Source of the DNA: Caldicellulosiruptor bescii DSM 6725
Lineage (GTDB): Bacteria > Bacillota > Thermoanaerobacteria > Caldicellulosiruptorales > Caldicellulosiruptoraceae
Direction of reading: 5' to 3'
Length of the DNA stretch: 64,000 bases
Assembly (NCBI RefSeq): GCF_000022325.1
Contig: NC_012034.1
Coordinates: 1,921,501 to 1,985,500 of the forward strand
In this document: positions 47,066 to 62,091 of the stretch, piece by piece
How positions within the stretch are numbered: the first letter of the stretch is position 1
Layout of the letters: the number at the start of each line of letters is the position of its first letter
Made by a program: the position numbers and the translations under genes
Notes under the pieces: model-generated
What the model was told of the DNA's origin: nothing
Databases searched by the model: none
The model's input: the letters and a program-made list of their open reading frames with translations, nothing else

Positions 47066-49187
47066 CTTAAAACCTAACCCCCTCTTTTTTATGCATTTTT
47101 GCCATTATACCTCTTTATTTTTTGTACTATTTTCTAAACACCTCCATACAGGATTTTAGCGAGGTAGCACACCATACTTATAGTTGTGCTACCCCGCTAA
47201 ATTTTCATTTACCTACTTAATTATTGATTGCCAAACAGTATTTCATATGTTGCATTAGCTATTGCTATGTCGCACTGTGCCCAGAACCTGTGATATCTGA
47301 ACTCAGGTGCCTGCCCTGACTTGTATGCCGCCTCTAACTTCGGCCAATCAGGATCTTGTTTATACTTGCTCCTTATGTCTATAAACTTAACTCCACTCTT
47401 TATTACATCTCCATTCGGCATCTTCCCTATCCATCCTGCCGGTATATATACCTCTTGCTCAAAGAACCTCTTGTAGTCCGCTCTCTTCTCTGGCGCTGAC
47501 AATCCCTTCTCATCCCTGTACAACTTCCACATCCTGTCCAGCAATTCCTTCGCTAAATTCTTCGCTCCCTCATCAAATACCCCATACTTCTTCGTCCCTG
47601 CACTATAGTACAACAACGCATTCGCCAATGACGCTGTTATTCCTAAGTCAGTACCATAGTCCACTACCTTAACATGTAAGTTGCTATTCCCTGTATACGC
47701 CCCGTTCCATGTATCAGGTTGTCCGCTCCAATCAAGCGTCGACGGTATCGCAAACGTACCATCACTATTCAACTTCACTACACTCTTAACCCAGCTTACC
47801 CACTTCTCAAGCAGTGCTCCTGCGTCCTTATCTCCTGTCACATAGTAATACTCCGCTACCCTCTGCATCGACCATGCCTGGAATCCAAACCATGTGTTGC
47901 TCCCAGGATCATGATATACCGGATTCGGTTCATATGCCATTCCATAAAATGTTGCTGTCCCTGCTGGATACTTCTCATATCTGCCATTCCATGAATTTGT
48001 CGCGCCTCCTGCTATCGCTCCCTCCGCTGACTGTAACCACCTGTAAAATTCTATCTGCCTCTTCAAACTCTTTGCCCAGTCACTCGCTCCATTCGGCGAC
48101 TTCGGCTTCATATCACTATCATTCGCTAATGCCCATGCCGCCATCGGATTCTGATATCCAAAGTGCACATGGCTGCTCCCTATCTTCCATGACCATGCTC
48201 CATCCAATGCTCCACCCCATGCATAATACCATGATAGCAGATAATGTGCACTGTCATACCCCGTTCCTCCAGCCGCATTCTTATCCTGACATCCTAATGG
48301 CTTGAAATACTTGTCAAACATCGCATACCTTAAATAGTCTCCCATCTTCGCTGCCTTCGCTACATAGCTGCTTATCTCATTAAACTTACCTTGCTCCTTC
48401 GCCCATACTTTCGCCCAATAAGTAGCCTGAATAGCTCTCGCATCAGCATCTGGTGCATCCGTATATCTCCACTGCTTCGAATAGTTCTGATCCTTAATAA
48501 ACAAATCTAAAAATCCATTCGGTCCGCCCCACTTGAATTCCTCCCAGCTCGGATGCGGCACCGTCTCCCATACAGACTCCTCAGGCCCTCTCTGGAACGT
48601 GTTGATAAATGATGCCCGACTTACTCCGTCCCCTCTCTTGCCATATCCATACCAGTTGTCTACGTCCATCAACCAGTGCATACCATACATTAATGTGCTA
48701 CCATATGTGCTCACAAGTTCATTATGCAACGGGTCTTTGCCAACAGGTACATTAAACTCCAACGGCGATGGATACTTGTCCGGTGTCTCCCACTCCCCTG
48801 CGTATGTCGCTGGCTTGTTAGGATCATATGACCTCATCGGCTGATCTTCCGCTGATGGTATCATATACTTCTCTAATGTGTCCCATGCTGTCTTAAATTT
48901 GCTCCAGTCACCCGTTAACTTACCATACACTGCCTCTAACCATACATAGTACGAAAATGCCTCACTCGTGGTCAAATGACCATAATCAGGTGCTTCGCAT
49001 ATCAATGTCTCTACCGAATGATATGGTATCCCATCCTGGTTAAAATACCCGTTCGCAGGATCATGTATCTTGTTCCATAACCACATAAACCTCTGCCCAT
49101 ATTCGCCAAGCACACTCGGTGTGCTGCTCGGCGTCGGTGTTGGTGTTGCTGTTACTGTTGGTGTCGCGGTTGGGGTTGGTGTTGGCG
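46041..49187 (-). repeat. 3147-bp duplicated block, copy 2
   Basis: Counterpart of 25001-28147; it covers the N-terminal half of the GH5-GH5 gene, its leader, the hairpin after celA and the celA GH48 module. Confidence 0.88.
47155..47201 (-). terminator. Hairpin after celA
   Basis: Same 17-bp hairpin as at 26115-26161, without a T run, 20 bases after the celA stop. Partial read-through from celA into the GH5-GH5 gene is therefore plausible. Confidence 0.7.
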
Positions 49188-52100
49188 TTGGTGTTGGTGT
49201 AGCAGTTGGTGTTGGTGTCGGGGTTGGAGTTGGTGCTGGTGTAGGTGTCGGTGTCACTGTCGGTGCTGGTGTCGCTGTCGGTGTTGGTGTCGCTCCACTC
49301 GGCTCCTGTCCCCATACCAATACACCATCTATATACGCTGTTACCTTCACATTCTCTCCATAATTCGTCATGCTCTGCATCCATGACCAGTCATTCCCCT
49401 GATTGTAATTGCTCCAGTCACTCTTGTTAAACCTTATCTGTATCTCCCCTGTGTCTTTACCAGCCTGCAACTGCCCAGCTCCACTCTTAAATCCTATCTC
49501 TAAATAATAGTCCGCTCCACTTACGCTACTGCTCAGCTTCACAAACTTGAATGTCACATTGCTTGCTCCTATCTGTGCCCAGTCTGATATCGCACTCTGT
49601 GCCTTGTCCCCATCTACCGTGTACCAGTACCTTATCGTTACCCTGCTCAAATCTATGCTGCTGCTTCCAGTGTTCACTACCTTCAACCATGGCCTTATCG
49701 TGTTTGTTGTGCTATTTGTCTCCTTGTTAGCATACAATACCTTTATCTGCCCGCCTGCTACAGGTGTGCTGCTCGGCGTCGGTGTTGGTGTTGGCGTTGC
49801 TGTTGGTGTAGCAGTTGGTGTTGACGTTGGTGTTGGTGTAGGTGTCGGTGTCACTGTCGGTGCTGGTGTCGCTGTCGGTGTTGGTGTCGCTCCACTCGGC
49901 TCCTGTCCCCATACCAATACACCATCTATATACGCTGTTACCTTCACATTCTCTCCATAATTCGTCATGCTCTGCATCCATGACCAGTCATTCCCCTGAT
50001 TGTAATTGCTCCAATCACTCTTGTTAAACCTTATCTGTATCTCCCCTGTGTCTTTGCCAGCCTGCAACTGCCCAGCTCCACTCTTAAATCCTATCTCTAA
50101 ATAATAGTCCGCTCCACTTACGCTACTGCTCAGCTTCACAAACTTGAATGTCACATTGCTTGCTCCTATCTGTGCCCAGTCTGATATCGCACTCTGTGCC
50201 TTGTCCCCATCTACCGTGTACCAGTACCTTATCGTTACCCTGCTCAAATCTATGCTGCTGCTTCCAGTGTTCACTACCTTCAACCATGGCCTTATCGTAT
50301 TAGTTGTGCTATTTGTCTCCTTGTTAGCATACAATACCTTTATCTGTCCACCTGCTACAGGTGTGCTGCTCGGCGTCGATGTTGGTGTTGGCGTTGCTGT
50401 TGGTGTAGCAGTCGGTGTCGGAGTCGGGGTTGGTGTTACTGTCGGTGTTGGTGTCGGTGTTGGTGTAGCAGTTGATGTTGGTGTTGGAGTCGGTGTTGGT
50501 GTTACTGTCGGCGTTGGTGTTGGTGTTGCTGTTGCTGTTGGTGTCGGTGTTGCTCCAGAAGTTCCTGGTTCTTCACCCCATACTTTCACATCTCCATCAT
50601 AAAGTGGAATATATTTAGTTTTAACAACTGAACCACTTGAAACTCCCTTTATATCCTGGAAAGAATAGTCGTTAGAATTATCCCACTGTACATTCTGTGG
50701 TGCTGCAATTCTGAATTGGACTTCTTTCTTATATTTGTCTTGACCACCTGGATAAATCAATGTGCCAGTAAAGTCTACTAAAATGTAGTATATATTTTTG
50801 CTTGCATCCCATACATAAGGTCCACTTACTTTTGCACCTTGATTATAATTGGTGCTCAAGGTTAATTGATTTGGTGAATATCCTGCTTTAATTAATTCAC
50901 TCAGGTCAACAAAATATCTAAATTTAAGCTTATCTGTTGCTCTGGCAGGCCAACCACTTTGGTTATTAACTATCGCTTTAATTTCAATAAAGTTAGTTCC
51001 GGATGCATTTATACCAGCTTCAACAAAGAATTCGTCGTTTGTTGGAGTTTCAATAGCTTTGAAATCTGGTATTGGATTCCCACCGTACAATTGATACATC
51101 TTTGCTAATGCACCCACAAACCCTGCATTATAATCACATGCAACCTCATTGTTCACATAGTTACTTATATCATCTGTGTAGCTATCATCAGAGCCTGGAC
51201 CACCAACAAGCGCTCCATATAATGTATGTCTGTGATATGAAGGTATACTCTGACTGTCTGCCCATGAGCTATGAGCAGTTCTGTGATGCGGTCTCTTTGG
51301 TGGATTTGTACCAAATCCAACAACAAAGCTTCTTCCAGCTGAGCCTAACGCATAATCAATCTGGCTTTCTCCAAATTTTCTATATATTTCTTTTTTTGTG
51401 CTTGGACAGCCAACCCAATCGCTATAAACAAATGCCAAAAATGCTGTAGTTGTTGCATATCTCAACGAACCCCATTGATCAAGCCATGCTAATCCTTTTG
51501 GTGTATACTTAATCCTTTCGCCATTGTATCCTGTAGTCCAGTAATCTAAGTGACTTTCAATAATTTGTTTATAAATATCCTTACCGGTAATTTTTGCTAA
51601 CAATAATGCCGCTCCATTGTGAACATCATCCCAGCAATGAGCCCACTTGTAGTCAATTGTGTTACTGCCAGAAATTTTGGGCCAATTTTGGACATATGAC
51701 TCAGCTTTTGTGAGATATGTTGAATCATTTGTTGCCAAATACAACCAAACTGCTGCCCAAGAAAGCTCATCATAGAAACCGCTCCATGAATTGTAATATC
51801 CATTTGCAGCAGTGTAACCTGCATCGCTTTTTGTTACTTCTGCAAACTCATATAATTCTTTTGCATGTTGCAGATATGTTGCTGCTTTAGTGGGATTTCT
51901 GTCTTTCAAAACAATTGAAGCTGCTGCTAAGGAAGCTGCTGTCTCTGCTACTACTGTAGATCCAGGACTGCTTTGGGTGACCTTAAATGAAGGTCTCTCC
52001 ATTTGCATAACCTCAGCAGGTCCCCACCATGCATGATCTTTACTTCCATCCCCAACCTGGTAATAGTATACATATTTGCTTGGATGACATTTTACAAAAT

Positions 52101-52500
52101 AGTCATTAACCCATTCGATTTGATTTAAGATATGTTCCAATTGACCACTCTTGACAAATGCATCTTTGTACTCATACACTGCCCATGACAACATTGTACC
52201 AGTGTATGACATTGGAAGGTTAAACTTGACGTGATCACCTGCGTCAAACCAACCACCTGTCAAATCAAGCCCATTGTCTTGACCATCCTTTAATGCTGAG
52301 TCGCCACGCCAGTTGTTGCGTACCCAATTCGGAAGTTTACCAGACATTTGAAATTCGTAAAACATGATAGCTTTTTGTAAAGCTTCCCCATAGTTAAACG
52401 AACCAGCCCTAACCTCTTGCCATGGTTTAACTCCATATACCACTCCTAAAATAAATATGAAGGTTACAACCATGGCAATAATTCTTCTGTAACGCTTCAT
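47221..52500 (-). CDS. celA: CelA: secreted cellulase GH9-CBM3c-CBM3-CBM3-GH48
   Basis: 1759 aa, the length I recall for C. bescii CelA. Signal peptide about 1-32. GH9 about 34-480, with the Asp pair in [15 protein letters not shown] and the acid Glu in [16 protein letters not shown]3c about 485-650 ([16 protein letters not shown]). Pro/Thr linkers, two CBM3 anchoring modules, then GH48 about 1130-1759 with [17 protein letters not shown]9 works as processive endoglucanase and GH48 as reducing-end exoglucanase on the same chain; CelA is the main secreted cellulase of the genus. AGGAGG is present 9 bases before the ATG and a strong sigma-A promoter lies immediately upstream. A c-di-GMP riboswitch with its own promoter lies about 0.55 kb further upstream. 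Confidence 0.97.
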
Positions 52501-52538: not shown

Positions 52539-52567
52539 ATTATATAACTAAAATGGATAGATGACAA
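52539..52567 (-). promoter_or_regulatory. Sigma-A promoter of celA
   Basis: On the minus strand TTGTCA (complement of 52562-52567), a 17-base spacer and TATAAT (complement of 52539-52544). It predicts transcription from about 52532, a leader of about 32 bases, and the AGGAGG just before the start codon. Confidence 0.85.
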
Positions 52568-52995: not shown

Positions 52996-53026
52996 AAAAA
53001 AACGGCGCCTTGCCAGACGCCGTTTT
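52996..53026 (-). terminator. Intrinsic terminator of the celA-upstream riboswitch
   Basis: On the minus strand an AACGGCG...CGCCGTT stem is followed by seven T. It begins 29 bases after the riboswitch P1 stem, the usual expression platform of a transcription-controlling riboswitch. Confidence 0.88.
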
Positions 53027-53054: not shown

Positions 53055-53154
53055 GAGTAGTTTCGGCAGCCTGGCAACCATAGGAAGTTTTTCTTCCGAC
53101 AGGCCCATGGCTTTGCGCCCCTGCCTTTCGACAGGTTTGCCCTTTCGACTACCC
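53055..53154 (-). ncRNA. Cyclic-di-GMP-I (GEMM) riboswitch upstream of celA
   Basis: On the minus strand the hallmark segments of the class I c-di-GMP aptamer appear in order: AAAGGGCAAACC, a GNRA-type loop (GTCGAAAGGC), GGGGCGCAAAGCC, ATGGGCCT, and the second arm ending GGTTGCCAGGCTGCCG. A P1 stem can form between GGGTAGT and ACTACTC at the ends. The tetraloop/receptor arrangement and the GCGCAAAGCC core are diagnostic. It is preceded by a consensus promoter and followed by a terminator. No gene starts directly behind it; the next minus-strand ORF is celA, 490 bases past the terminator. Confidence 0.93.
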
Positions 53155-53203: not shown

Positions 53204-53232
53204 ATTATATCATTAACTCAGTAATATGTCAA
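53204..53232 (-). promoter_or_regulatory. Consensus sigma-A promoter of the riboswitch
   Basis: On the minus strand TTGACA (complement of 53227-53232), 17 bases, TATAAT (complement of 53204-53209): a perfect match to both boxes with ideal spacing. Predicted start about 53197, some 40 bases before the aptamer. Confidence 0.9.
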
Positions 53233-56927: not shown

Positions 56928-58877
56928 TTATTTAACAACAATACTTCTTCTTACTACCCTATACAAAGTACCGCTTTGAATTGTATCCCTTCGGCTGGAA
57001 ATTGTTACAGGCGGAACATATCCAGTACTATTTGTTACCTGATTCTGAATGAGTGAACTCGGTGAGCCATATATTAATATAACACCATCAAATGGACTCC
57101 CGCCCGAACTATTTATATTAAGAGTATTGCCTAACGCAATCAATTGACCATTTAATATTCTCGTTCCCACTGAAATAGTAATGTTGTTTCTTGCAAAAAC
57201 ATGCAATTGGAGTGGACTTGGAACTGGTGAAACGCCCATGCTTGCTAACCTGTTTCGAACCTCAACTTCAATTTCACCAGCATCACAATTTTCTCCAATA
57301 ACTACAACCTGCGGAGGTGACTTTGAAATATCTGCAGCACTGTCAATTGATGCTGGTGGAACTGAGTCATGGGGTGTTATCGATGGTATACTTGTACTAT
57401 TAGGAAAATTAAAATTTCTTATATCACTTATTATTTGAGGTAAAGGTGGATATGGAATAGAAGGTGCTACATTTATAATTCCACCTGAATTAACAATCCG
57501 ACTGTAGTCAGGCGGCATCCTCGTCACAATGGTTGCGCCATTTTCTATTACCAACGTAGTTGGATTGTTCAAAAACTGAATCGAATCGCAATATACTACC
57601 GCACCAGATTTTATTGTAACTGTCCCCTGATCCTGTATTCTTAACGCACCCCTGATTACTCCTATTTTCTTTATTACAACATCTACCGCATTTGCTATAC
57701 TACCTTTAACTATGACATCCCCATCGCAGTATAACTCATCGAACTCATATCTACCTCTACCATATAATTCCGCATTTCCCCCCACGTACGTTATACCCAT
57801 CTGCAAGCTAATATTTCTATCTCCAACACCTGTTCTTCTCAAATTTGATCTAATATAAGTTACATTGTTAACTTTTACATTGTCTTCGCGAACTTGTGGA
57901 TTACCGTTCACACCCAGTGATAACTCACCCATTACCACTATATTATTAATGTCAGTTTGCAGACCACCATGTGATTGTAAATCACCACCTGTATGCACAT
58001 TCCCACCTATTATGGTAAAGTTGACATTTGCCACAAAGTTCCCATTAGTATATAGTGCATAGTCGAATAAGTTAAATATTGAAGACGCAAGAGTTGTAGT
58101 TCCGATCGATATAACACTTTCCAGACTATTAGGGCTACTTGAAAGTATTTTAAAGTCTAATCGCAATGTTCTTTTTACTTCTTTATCTGACGAAGTTACA
58201 GCTCTTGTTTTAGAAACATCAATGTAAATGGTATAACCGTCAGGTAGAGAACTTCCTGTCGCACCTGACCATGCATTAACTGTAATACCATCAAATTTAT
58301 ATCCAGTCAAACCCTCATAATGGGGTTTTATCCATAACTGCACCAAGTCAGATATCTTCTTAAACTCCATCAACGGTAAAGATTCTACCTTTACAGAAGC
58401 ATCACTGCCCACATCATTCATAAACCGACTTACCTCATCCTTTATTATCGCTTCCATACCTTTATACACCTTGTCCTTTGCTACATCTTGAGTTATCCTC
58501 CCGTGTCGCAAATCATCTAATATCTTCCCCGGTTCGTAACTCTCGTCCCCCAATAACAATCTTACTCTACCAGGACTTGTATTTTCCAGTGTCCCATCCG
58601 CTTTGTAATAATAATCATATGCTATATCCTTTGCAGCCTCCAATAATTGATTAAAATAATATAAAAACTCCTCTGCCGCACTTTCAGCTCCATAACCTGT
58701 TGCAGATTTCTGATATATAGATGTGCTCTGGTTCAGCGATGCTAACACAGCCGACATCGTCCCCAGTAATACCGTGCTCAAAATGGCAATTATTATTATT
58801 ACAACAATTAAGGTGCTTCCTCTTATATTAGTTTTTAGTATTTTTGGATTAAAAATAATTCTATTTATTTTAATCAT
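56928..58877 (-). CDS. Tapirin-type cellulose-binding adhesin 1 (riboswitch-controlled)
   Basis: About 649 aa. The start is preferred at 58877 (MIKINRI), 6 bases after AAGGGAG; an ATG at 58910 has a weaker site. After a short basic leader the sequence has a pilin/PilX-like membrane segment (G, then STLIVVIIIIAILSTVLLG), a helical region (ATGYGAESAAEEFLYYFNQL), and a beta-rich part to about residue 240. A right-handed beta-helix-like C-terminal half follows (NFTIIGGNVHTGGDLQSHGG, DELYCDGDVIVKGSI, GALRIQDQGTVTIKSGAVVY). This architecture and the position between celA and type IV pilus genes match tapirins, Caldicellulosiruptor surface proteins that bind cellulose. The c-di-GMP riboswitch and its terminator end 78 bases upstream of this start. 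Confidence 0.85.
   Translation of the reverse strand: MIKINRIIFNPKILKTNIRGSTLIVVIIIIAILSTVLLGTMSAVLASLNQSTSIYQKSATGYGAESAAEEFLYYFNQLLEAAKDIAYDYYYKADGTLENTSPGRVRLLLGDESYEPGKILDDLRHGRITQDVAKDKVYKGMEAIIKDEVSRFMNDVGSDASVKVESLPLMEFKKISDLVQLWIKPHYEGLTGYKFDGITVNAWSGATGSSLPDGYTIYIDVSKTRAVTSSDKEVKRTLRLDFKILSSSPNSLESVISIGTTTLASSIFNLFDYALYTNGNFVANVNFTIIGGNVHTGGDLQSHGGLQTDINNIVVMGELSLGVNGNPQVREDNVKVNNVTYIRSNLRRTGVGDRNISLQMGITYVGGNAELYGRGRYEFDELYCDGDVIVKGSIANAVDVVIKKIGVIRGALRIQDQGTVTIKSGAVVYCDSIQFLNNPTTLVIENGATIVTRMPPDYSRIVNSGGIINVAPSIPYPPLPQIISDIRNFNFPNSTSIPSITPHDSVPPASIDSAADISKSPPQVVVIGENCDAGEIEVEVRNRLASMGVSPVPSPLQLHVFARNNITISVGTRILNGQLIALGNTLNINSSGGSPFDGVILIYGSPSSLIQNQVTNSTGYVPPVTISSRRDTIQSGTLYRVVRRSIVVK
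58143..58808 (-). repeat. 666-bp tapirin N-terminal duplication, copy 1
   Basis: Apparently identical to 60505-61170 (offset 2362). It covers the membrane segment and the following 200 or so residues. The flanks, including the first codons and the whole C-terminal half, are unrelated at DNA level. Confidence 0.9.
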
Positions 58878-58954
58878 ACTATTCACTCCCTTTGTGCTTT
58901 TATTTTTCATTAATAACTCATTAACCCTTTAAAACCCCAAATAACAATGGATAT

Positions 58955-58984
58955 AAAAAAGGCATCTGACGGTTGCCAGATGCC
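58955..58984 (-). terminator. Intrinsic terminator of the tapirin riboswitch
   Basis: On the minus strand GGCATCTG (complement of 58977-58984), an 8-base loop and CAGATGCC, followed by six T. It starts 34 bases after the aptamer P1 stem and ends 45 bases before the first possible start codon. Confidence 0.9.
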
Positions 58985-59018
58985 ATTAGCCAAGGATTAT
59001 ATTCACAAATAATCACTC

Positions 59019-59121
59019 GGCATATCTTCGGCAGCCTGGCAACCATAGGAAGTTTTACTTCCGACAGGCCCATGGCTTTGCGCCCCTGCCTTTCGACAGG
59101 TTTGCCCTTTCGATATATGCC
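59019..59121 (-). ncRNA. Cyclic-di-GMP-I (GEMM) riboswitch upstream of tapirin 1
   Basis: Same aptamer core as at 53055-53154 with one visible base change in the apical loop: AAAGGGCAAACC, GTCGAAAGGC, GGGGCGCAAAGCC, ATGGGCCT, GGTTGCCAGGCTGCCG. The P1 stem differs (GGCATAT with ATATGCC), showing the core is conserved while P1 and the platform are not. The terminator and the tapirin gene follow directly. I found no convincing sigma-A promoter in the 190 bases between the upstream tapirin stop and the aptamer, so it may also act on read-through from the pilus/tapirin 2 operon. Confidence 0.94.
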
Positions 59122-59307
59122 ACAGCTTTTTTATTAATTTCACTTTCTTAGACTTTATTAACTCACAAAACTTGATGTTTTTCAGACATATTATTAAACT
59201 TTCGTATTATGGTGATAACTAATTTATATTAAAGCTGTTAATTGCTTCCACATCCATCTTTTTAAGTATTTTTATTGATATAAACAAATTTATTATTTTC
59301 ATACCTA

Positions 59308-61236
59308 CTACCTTGTAACCATGTTTCGTCTTAAAATGTCATATAAAGTTTTCCTTTCAATAGCATCATTTTGTGTGAATATTGCTTGAGATGGTTGAAT
59401 ACCTGTATTACTCTCAATGTCTTGCTGAATGGGTGGACTTGGCATTTGATACTTCAACGTGAGTCCTGCATATGGATTTCCCATAGTGTTAATGTTAAAA
59501 GTACTACCAAGAGAAATAATTGAACCATTCATAATGGTTAAGCCACCACCCACAAATGTAATGTTTCCTCTTGAAATTAAATGCAACTGGAGTGTTGAGA
59601 AATCAACAATTGGTAATCCCAATCTGGCTGATATCTCTATTCTTGCTTCATTATCATTAATATAGGATTCACCATATATTACTATCTGCGGAGGCGTCTG
59701 AGATGTATCTGCAGTACTGCCAAGTTGGTTACTACCTACACTATCAGCTGGCAATGGTGTTGTTAGCAAACCACTTGTATAATCCCGATTTCTTATCTCA
59801 TCTATCTCAGCTGGCGTAGGTGGATATGAAAAAGAAGAAGAATACAAAATTGTCCCACCATTATTTTGTATTGATATTATCGTGGAGGCATCGGGAGTTG
59901 TTGCTATATATAATTTTGCTCCATTTTCAAGAATCAAGCGGGAACCATTGCGTACTACCAATGAATTACAGTAAAGTACACTGTTATTTTGCAAGGTAAC
60001 TGTTGCCCCATCAGTAATCTCAAGTCTTCCTGTTATACTTGCTAATCCAGAAATTACCATATTCACTCCAGACCCAGCTAAAACGACATTATTATCTGTA
60101 AACAATTGATTAAATTCATAATTTCCTGCACCATATAATTGTATATCCTGAACAACATAAATTATTCTTGCTCGAATATTTGTCAAACGCGGATATGTTC
60201 TGTTTGTTTTTAAGTTTTTTTCTACATAAATTATGTTTCTCACATTTATATTATTGTCTCTACATCGCGAGTCACTATCTTGGTTTATCACCATCTCACC
60301 TTTTGATATCAAATTATCAATATTAAACGCCGCACCACCGTCTATCGTTAGGTCACCACCTGAATACACACTTCCATTTTCGACAGTAAGGTTTTTGTTA
60401 GTATTAAGAGCACCCTTTGAAAATATTGCGTAATCAAGCGGTGATGAAGGAACTGTAGTTGGTGAAGGATTCAAGATTATGTTTTGTGAACTTCCACTGT
60501 TACCAAGTATTTTAAAGTCTAATCGCAATGTTCTTTTTACTTCTTTATCTGACGAAGTTACAGCTCTTGTTTTAGAAACATCAATGTAAATGGTATAACC
60601 GTCAGGTAGAGAACTTCCTGTCGCACCTGACCATGCATTAACTGTAATACCATCAAATTTATATCCAGTCAAACCCTCATAATGGGGTTTTATCCATAAC
60701 TGCACCAAGTCAGATATCTTCTTAAACTCCATCAACGGTAAAGATTCTACCTTTACAGAAGCATCACTGCCCACATCATTCATAAACCGACTTACCTCAT
60801 CCTTTATTATCGCTTCCATACCTTTATACACCTTGTCCTTTGCTACATCTTGAGTTATCCTCCCGTGTCGCAAATCATCTAATATCTTCCCCGGTTCGTA
60901 ACTCTCGTCCCCCAATAACAATCTTACTCTACCAGGACTTGTATTTTCCAGTGTCCCATCCGCTTTGTAATAATAATCATATGCTATATCCTTTGCAGCC
61001 TCCAATAATTGATTAAAATAATATAAAAACTCCTCTGCCGCACTTTCAGCTCCATAACCTGTTGCAGATTTCTGATATATAGATGTGCTCTGGTTCAGCG
61101 ATGCTAACACAGCCGACATCGTCCCCAGTAATACCGTGCTCAAAATGGCAATTATTATTATTACAACAATCAAAACAGACCCGTTAACCTTTTTAACAAA
61201 TAATCTTTCCTTTAACCCGATAAATTTTTGTGGCAT
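59308..61236 (-). CDS. Tapirin-type cellulose-binding adhesin 2
   Basis: 642 aa. After 19 unique residues comes the same membrane segment and helical/beta region as in tapirin 1 (about 20-235). The C-terminal half is a different beta-helix-like domain (LTVENGSVYSGGDLTIDGGA, TGRLEITDGATVTLQNNSVL, GSRLILENGAKLYI). Both proteins share a Pro-rich segment and QPPQIV/TPPQIVIYGE-type motifs, so the halves are distant homologues. The start lies 6 bases after the stop of the prepilin-like gene, within GGGGGTAAAAGGAGATG, so it belongs to the pilus operon. Expected on the cell surface, possibly with the pili, binding cellulose. Confidence 0.85.
   Translation of the reverse strand: MPQKFIGLKERLFVKKVNGSVLIVVIIIIAILSTVLLGTMSAVLASLNQSTSIYQKSATGYGAESAAEEFLYYFNQLLEAAKDIAYDYYYKADGTLENTSPGRVRLLLGDESYEPGKILDDLRHGRITQDVAKDKVYKGMEAIIKDEVSRFMNDVGSDASVKVESLPLMEFKKISDLVQLWIKPHYEGLTGYKFDGITVNAWSGATGSSLPDGYTIYIDVSKTRAVTSSDKEVKRTLRLDFKILGNSGSSQNIILNPSPTTVPSSPLDYAIFSKGALNTNKNLTVENGSVYSGGDLTIDGGAAFNIDNLISKGEMVINQDSDSRCRDNNINVRNIIYVEKNLKTNRTYPRLTNIRARIIYVVQDIQLYGAGNYEFNQLFTDNNVVLAGSGVNMVISGLASITGRLEITDGATVTLQNNSVLYCNSLVVRNGSRLILENGAKLYIATTPDASTIISIQNNGGTILYSSSFSYPPTPAEIDEIRNRDYTSGLLTTPLPADSVGSNQLGSTADTSQTPPQIVIYGESYINDNEARIEISARLGLPIVDFSTLQLHLISRGNITFVGGGLTIMNGSIISLGSTFNINTMGNPYAGLTLKYQMPSPPIQQDIESNTGIQPSQAIFTQNDAIERKTLYDILRRNMVTR
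60505..61170 (-). repeat. 666-bp tapirin N-terminal duplication, copy 2
   Basis: Counterpart of 58143-58808; no difference found on comparison by eye. Confidence 0.9.
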
Positions 61237-61242
61237 CTCCTT

Positions 61243-62091
61243 TTACCCCCTCACCATAAATTTATAATCTCTCACTTTTCTATTCCTTTTTTCGTCCCAA
61301 ATCTCCATTGTTACTTCAAAAAGCTGATGGTAAAACTTTGAATCATTGTACGAAATAAATCTTACAGTGGTCCTCTGCGTTGTAAAATTAATAGCAGAAC
61401 TTGCTGTCGGACTTGGTAGAGGAGATGCCGCAGAACTTACTGAAAAGCTCTTAGACCATACCTCTAAACTTTGAGCGGTATAATTTGATGTAAGAACACC
61501 TCCACTCATCTCAAATACGCCATTAATATTACAATTAACCGCAGATGAGTTGTCAATAAAATATATCTTAAAATTGGGTCTTTCAATTATTAATGGTATA
61601 TTATTGAATTTGTACTCTGCCCGGTTCACTCCGCTTGTTTCTTTATAAACTTCTATATTCACTATCCCGCTTAAACCTGATGGAAGAGAAAACCTATAGT
61701 CATATCTTACTCCACCATATGTTGCATCATAAACTTTTTGATATACTGATACTGTATTTGAAGAGTCAGCTGTAAGAATTAAGTCGAAATCACTTTCTAA
61801 CCTTTTAACTGTATACTTTACTCTATATCTATCATTGCCATATTGCAGTTCATTGCCACTATAATCTGGCAAAAAATATACTGTATCTGTAAAATGACTA
61901 ACATCATTTGCCATTTCAGCATACATTTTTTCCATTGCTTTGTTCAAAACCTGAGCAATATCCATATTCTCTTTTGACTTTGAGGTTACCCTTATCGACT
62001 GGTTAAATGCAATTCCAATTGGAACCAATATTATAGCAAATATAGCAACAGCAACTATAGCCTCTATTAACGAAAAACCCTTTAGCTTCAT
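61243..62091 (-). CDS. Type IV prepilin-like protein (minor pilin)
   Basis: 282 aa. The N-terminus MKLKGFSLIEAIVAVAIFAI has a canonical type III prepilin signal: short basic leader, Gly/Phe cleavage site, Glu at +5 and a hydrophobic helix. The rest is a beta-rich globular part of about 240 residues, long for a major pilin, so a minor pilin (PilV/PilW-like) is likely. It is co-transcribed with pilM-pilN-pilO upstream (11 bases after pilO) and tapirin 2 downstream. It probably helps initiate or tip the pilus; a partner role with the tapirins is inferred from the spacing. Confidence 0.88.
   Translation of the reverse strand: MKLKGFSLIEAIVAVAIFAIILVPIGIAFNQSIRVTSKSKENMDIAQVLNKAMEKMYAEMANDVSHFTDTVYFLPDYSGNELQYGNDRYRVKYTVKRLESDFDLILTADSSNTVSVYQKVYDATYGGVRYDYRFSLPSGLSGIVNIEVYKETSGVNRAEYKFNNIPLIIERPNFKIYFIDNSSAVNCNINGVFEMSGGVLTSNYTAQSLEVWSKSFSVSSAASPLPSPTASSAINFTTQRTTVRFISYNDSKFYHQLFEVTMEIWDEKRNRKVRDYKFMVRG

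Follow-up and report, generated by a model that had tools for sequence, protein, structure and literature searches.

Tapirins serve in attachment to cellulose and are known from Caldicellulosiruptor, which is a candidate for consolidated bioprocessing; the locus considered here raises the question of whether c-di-GMP controls a tapirin gene through a riboswitch and, if so, with which sign. The window, i.e. the whole stretch of 64,000 nucleotides that was analyzed, corresponds to C1:1921501-1985500 of the genome G000 (2.93 Mb); coordinates below are those of the window except where a contig is named, and the window features described all lie on the minus strand. The locus contains a series of type IV pilus genes, two tapirin genes, a gene for a GH9-CBM3-GH48 protein and genes for more multidomain cellulases, in an order that fits C. 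bescii. On the minus strand, the pilus genes are followed by the first tapirin gene (tapirin A), an aptamer, a terminator and the second tapirin gene (tapirin B) and, continuing past tapirin B, by a gene for an NHL-repeat protein, another aptamer (53151..53062) and CelA (52500..47221).

Tapirin A (59308..61236; phmmer match to PDB 4wa0, 1.1e-202) is the last gene of the type IV pilus cluster, lies 6 bp from the gene for an N_methyl-motif protein (62091..61243) and has its own leader without an aptamer. Tapirin B (56928..58877, 649 aa) is the gene after the switch and matches PDB 6n2b 'Tapirin' (phmmer, 1.3e-82), over residues 68-660 and thus most of the protein, as well as 4wa0 (1.7e-61). The mechanically called ORF begins at 58910, the first ATG, but the ATG at 58877 is the likelier start because a Shine-Dalgarno motif, GGGAG, is found 8 nt 5' of it (58890..58886). 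Because the closest relative of 4WA0 at this locus is tapirin A, upstream of the aptamer, the gene predicted to be under control of the switch is its paralogue; of the two tapirins, only tapirin B has the switch in its leader, and the 4WA0-like tapirin A in the pilus cluster does not. Cellulose binding has been reported for tapirins as a group (PMC7142884), to which tapirin B belongs by sequence. The counterpart of tapirin A in G006 matches 4WA0 with 764.9 bits and more closely than tapirin A of G000, which makes it likely that 4WA0 came from the species of G006 (presumably C. kronotskyensis).

The two tapirin genes share an identical stretch of 666 bp in their 5' parts. Within a genome, the 5' parts are 0.97-0.98 identical in G000, G003 and G011 and 0.91 in G006; between orthologues the corresponding identity is 0.85-0.99 and often below the within-genome value. 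Since the 5' parts are near-identical within a genome while the 3' parts are only ~64% alike, the N-terminal parts look like products of gene conversion.

The aptamer (59019..59121), delineated by cmscan and hand-built helices, comprises P1 (GGCATAT 59121..59115 paired with ATATGCC 59025..59019), P2 with a GAAA tetraloop, and P3. A covariance-model search, proposed as a check in the original prediction, places it in class I of the c-di-GMP riboswitches (GEMM-I), with scores above the gathering threshold for two families: cmscan matched c-di-GMP-I-GGC (RF03167) at 59115..59026 with 70.7 bits against a gathering threshold of 59 (E 1e-14), and the whole-genome search with RF01051 gave 82.3 bits against a threshold of 35 (59116..59027). 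A search of this genome for c-di-GMP-II gave no match, but its controls were likewise empty and the result is therefore uninformative. The parts expected of GEMM-I are present, namely the GGCAAAC core, P1, the GAAA-capped P2, and P3. The aptamer core had been described as nearly identical to that of the aptamer upstream of CelA, and 86 of 87 bases are indeed the same. A plasmid search returned one aptamer-sized match of 80%, from Alicyclobacillus.

How firmly is this aptamer tied to tapirin B? A search of the wider genome contigs with the tapirin found no relative, in a set from which near records may be absent, and therefore all comparison rests on 12 genomes of the genus, which are few and related. 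RF01051 matched in 12/12 Caldicellulosiruptor genomes and in 0/14 control genomes, and 30 aptamers are listed in the 12. Three contexts recur among them: T, before tapirin B (G000, G003, G006, G008, G009 and G011); C, before CelA, in seven genomes; and S, found in most genomes, before an ORF for a small secreted product (about 140-160 aa). The T aptamer lies in the intergenic region before tapirin B in 6/6 genomes with an orthologue, complete or broken; the orthologues are 86-97% identical in G003, G006, G009 and G011, and that of G008 is broken by a transposon. The six genomes without tapirin B carry distant tapirin-like genes (27-35% identity) and have a T aptamer in 0/6. In G009, a transposase-bearing stretch parts tapirin A from the rest, leaving promoter, aptamer and tapirin B intact, and in G008 an insertion splits the tapirin gene behind an undamaged leader. 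On these two arrangements, the leader and tapirin B behave as a self-standing unit. A second aptamer of G008 (L054, G008:C1:10755-10820) is itself truncated, and the one in the tapirin leader (L044) is intact.

Several aptamers in other settings deserve mention. A third aptamer of G000 (L032, C1:1919748-1919845) lies just outside the window, before a secreted ORF of 139 aa without a Pfam match, and near it is a convergent GAF-GGDEF gene that is broken in G000 (295-aa ORF) and whole in G002 (401 aa). In G011, a class I aptamer (L053, G011:C1:912799-912898) precedes a gene whose product carries an HD-GYP-like HD_5 domain, an arrangement that may provide feedback on c-di-GMP breakdown. In G005, an orphan aptamer with a terminator (L039, G005:C1:943671-943760) lies directly 3' of a highly diverged tapirin-like gene, and no co-directional gene was found beyond the aptamer; the likeness of its P1 to that of the small-ORF class suggests that the pilus locus and the small-ORF locus may once have been neighbours.

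In agreement with the expected order of aptamer, terminator and tapirin gene, the aptamer is followed by an intrinsic terminator (58955..58984), with tapirin B next and no gene between. The terminator has a 10-pair stem, an AACC loop and a T6 tract (GGCATCTGGCAACCGTCAGATGCC followed by TTTTTT at 58984..58961), is 100% canonical in the six genomes and is the sole terminator-like site in a scan of 58800..59420 (0.1 expected). Given the positions of aptamer and terminator, the interval 58955..59121 therefore covers the leader from P1 to the U-tract. In the ligand-free minimum free energy fold of the G000 leader, whether computed for 37 or for 70 °C, GGUUGCCAG in the 3' strand of P3 and the bases that follow pair with GGCAUCUGGCAACC, forming a predicted antiterminator that joins P3 to the terminator 5' arm (CUGGCAACC). 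Its 5' strand is the ATGGTTGCCAGGCTGCC region (59029..59046), its 3' strand is the terminator 5' arm with the loop (GGCATCTGGCAACC, 58969..58985), and its 17 pairs are 95% canonical, counted in cells across the six genomes. Inside it, a linker hairpin, GCCGAG...CTTGGC (58990..59021), is predicted; it overlaps the 3' end of P1 and is canonical in 90% of cells, with one two-sided change. The aptamer helices are 100% canonical in the six tapirin leaders, also with one two-sided change; such changes are few because the six leaders are closely related.

Folding of the six leaders separates the two states. At 37 °C, the unconstrained fold gave terminator probabilities of 0.00-0.05 and antiterminator probabilities of 0.94-1.00, and with the aptamer enforced the terminator reached 0.78-1.00; at 75 °C, the terminator had a probability of 0.01-0.58 in the free leader versus 0.91-0.95 with the aptamer enforced. 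In G008, G009 and G011 the ligand-free terminator was at 0.50-0.58 at the higher temperature and the antiterminator only partly favoured. Since the antiterminator is excluded by construction once the aptamer is enforced, what carries information is the low ligand-free termination. Shuffled self-complementary stems of the same composition had mean terminator probabilities of 0.92-0.97, and at both temperatures none was as low as the real terminator (0/60 per leader, 0/360 in total). Folds of growing prefixes had the antiterminator formed before the terminator 3' arm is transcribed. All of these folds are equilibrium predictions with parameters derived at 37 °C and extrapolated, for an organism that grows at 70-80 °C.

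Conservation across the genus points in the same direction as the folds. CUGGC, the complement of the aptamer GCCAG, is invariant in 26/26 leaders in the three gene contexts, the 26 being the T, C and S platforms and the four further aptamers, which precede other genes or are truncated and lack a platform, being uncounted. The bases that face CUGGC in the terminator vary among these 26 leaders, and the CelA leaders have UGGC in the loop of the terminator, a position at which the hairpin does not depend on it. The best explanation for the invariance of CUGGC is for these reasons that it pairs with the aptamer in the antiterminator.

On the strength of the predicted structures, we consider it probable that the class I c-di-GMP riboswitch is a transcriptional OFF-switch on tapirin B. 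There is no overlap between aptamer and terminator, so that both can be present together, as has been described for the Cd1 OFF-switch, and in the predicted structures the terminator is compatible with the aptamer and the antiterminator is the competitor. At low c-di-GMP, the P3 3' strand would pair with the terminator 5' arm, and this antiterminator would block the terminator, allowing transcription of tapirin B. At high c-di-GMP, the aptamer would be stabilized and would hold the P3 3' strand, the terminator (58984..58961) would form, and transcription would stop before tapirin B. The switch would receive transcripts from a predicted promoter (about 59185..59157), perhaps also by read-through from the pilus cluster. 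Tapirin B would be made in a low-c-di-GMP, fibre-feeding state and reduced as c-di-GMP rises. We infer ligand binding and OFF polarity in the cell from this architecture. Covariance score, comparative anatomy and co-occurrence give good support to a class I riboswitch with a terminator directly on a tapirin gene, as originally proposed; the predicted OFF sign disfavours the simple idea that c-di-GMP makes cells attach.

The supply of transcripts bears on a variant of the OFF reading in which the main role of the switch is to gate transcripts that read through from the pilus genes and tapirin A, c-di-GMP deciding whether the second tapirin is added, with the local promoter in a minor role. The promoter, recognized by alignment, consists of a -35 CTGAAA (59185..59180), a 17-nt spacer and a TG-extended -10 GTTAAT (59162..59157); it is weak in G000 (8/12 consensus plus TGN) and absent from the promoter scan listing, and we infer its use. 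The scan of 58800..59420 found no terminator between tapirin A (59308) and the aptamer, and pilus-cluster read-through may therefore feed the switch. Both observations favour gating of read-through. However, the aligned promoter is stronger in three relatives, G008, G009 and G011 (TTGAAA-17-TGA-GATAAT), and in G009, where the DNA just 5' of the -35 is unrelated to that of the other genomes, foreign DNA parts tapirin A from the unit, with promoter, aptamer and tapirin B intact. The two routes can coexist, and read-through as the main route strikes us as possible but rather doubtful.

The opposite polarity, an ON-switch in which c-di-GMP promotes read-through so that tapirin and attachment rise as for V. 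cholerae gbpA or B. thuringiensis cap, has precedents in class I ON switches on adhesins (PMC4744006, PMC6366702), and the high c-di-GMP that accompanies biofilm in C. owensensis co-cultures (PMC4342205) could fit an ON adhesin. Nevertheless, we consider it very unlikely. The aptamer and the terminator of Cd1 can form together and have an antiterminator as their competitor, while in the ON-switch pilM aptamer and terminator are mutually exclusive (PMC9262584); in the tapirin leader the competitor of the aptamer is likewise the antiterminator and not the terminator. In C. difficile, OFF is the polarity of all seven class I switches that are functional, and the same report warns that polarity is not transferable between species and must be tested (PMC6366702). 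Our prediction of OFF for tapirin B is made because the leader is of the Cd1 type and because the C. difficile switches are uniformly OFF. Cd1 (Cdi-1-3), an OFF-switch on the flgB operon, shares with the tapirin switch the aptamer class, antiterminator competition and intrinsic termination (PMC9262584, PMC6366702); it differs in that its target is flagella, its host is a mesophile and it has been tested experimentally.

Could the aptamer sense another cyclic dinucleotide, e.g. cyclic AMP-GMP, or be degenerate and no longer switch? Sequence alone cannot prove binding, and in P3, where the UAUGG half of the tetraloop-receptor is present, the opposite side reads CUGU versus CUAA in the Rfam consensus, a deviation common to the genus that adjoins the likely tetraloop receptor. 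Against this, the equivalent of Vc2 G20, two bases before the C of GGCAAAC and assigned by our own alignment, is G in 26/26 leaders; this position has been described by one source as a selectivity factor (PMC9262584). GGCAAAC itself is found in 26/26 leaders, the core is almost invariant while the flanks diverge, and the G000 genome encodes ordinary GGDEF domains (eight hits, of which one broken gene accounts for two) and EAL domains (four), besides several domains of HD-GYP type, and we give a changed ligand or loss of switching little credence. That the hairpin is simply a constitutive terminator, as its location where the pilus gene cluster ends might suggest, with an aptamer that has no effect on tapirin, is highly improbable, given that shuffled terminators of the same composition reach a probability of about 0.95 in the model and the real one does not, and that CUGGC is conserved beyond the needs of the hairpin.

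The CelA leader provides a contrast from the same locus. Its aptamer (53062..53151) belongs to the same family (RF01051, 81.9 bits), occurs in 7/12 genomes and lies behind a perfect distal promoter found in the promoter scan (TTGACA-17-TATAAT, 53232..53204) and before a terminator at about 53025..53000. Like the aptamer before the 139-aa ORF, it has the same core as the tapirin leader and a CUGGC-bearing terminator. The CelA leader differs from the tapirin leader in having a proximal promoter 3' of the riboswitch terminator (TTGTCA-17-TATAAT, 52567..52539), kept in 7/7 genomes, and c-di-GMP control of CelA can therefore be only partial. Start-site mapping found the longest 5' UTR among carbohydrate genes to be 329 nt (PMC8579813), which fits use of the proximal CelA promoter. 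The scan listed no promoter-like site between the terminator and tapirin B, and tapirin B is for this reason a cleaner riboswitch target than CelA.

Published measurements touch on the proposed sign. Levels of c-di-GMP were low in pure cultures of C. kronotskyensis and C. saccharolyticus and higher in C. owensensis, which forms biofilm (PMC9933333, PMC4342205); with units inconsistent between the papers, these values agree weakly with an OFF-switch that stays open in the cellulolytic species. On C5 substrates, C. bescii had more Athe_1870, beside which Athe_1871 is named (p = 0.013), and CelA showed no variation (PMC5865380); Athe_1870 and Athe_1871 are presumably the two tapirins.

Class I c-di-GMP riboswitches on adhesins are already known with both signs. 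In C. difficile, Cdi-1-2 precedes CD630_27970, which encodes a calcium-binding adhesion protein and whose transcript is lowered by c-di-GMP (-7.15 fold; PMC6200980); this adhesin is unrelated to tapirins and no cellulose binding is described for it. Vc1 of V. cholerae also has a class I aptamer and precedes gbpA, for a polysaccharide-binding (GlcNAc/chitin) surface-attachment protein (PMC4744006), but regulates positively and not by transcription termination (PMC6366702). Bc2 of B. thuringiensis, before cap (collagen adhesion protein), shares the aptamer class, control of read-through and an adhesin as target, but is an ON-switch (PMC6366702). In the open-access literature searched, we found no description of a tapirin or other Caldicellulosiruptor gene with a c-di-GMP riboswitch, and no account of signalling in tapirin expression. 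Because the regulatory kind itself is well known, interest rests on the target and the predicted sign: what would be new is the tapirin target, the thermophilic cellulolytic setting and the negative sign predicted for a cellulose adhesin.

An OFF-switch at this position would constitute a specific link, testable by single-base changes, from a second messenger to cellulose attachment, with a predicted sign that reverses the usual 'c-di-GMP means stick', and the tapirin switch may be a thermostable natural OFF-switch part. We speculate, tentatively, that on plant fibre the use of c-di-GMP could be inverted: low c-di-GMP would mark the cellulose-attached feeding state, with tapirin B on and the distal CelA promoter open, and rising c-di-GMP would terminate both leaders as cells leave the fibre or turn towards other biofilm. 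If so, because only one of the two gene-converted tapirins responds, c-di-GMP would also change which adhesin the cells display.
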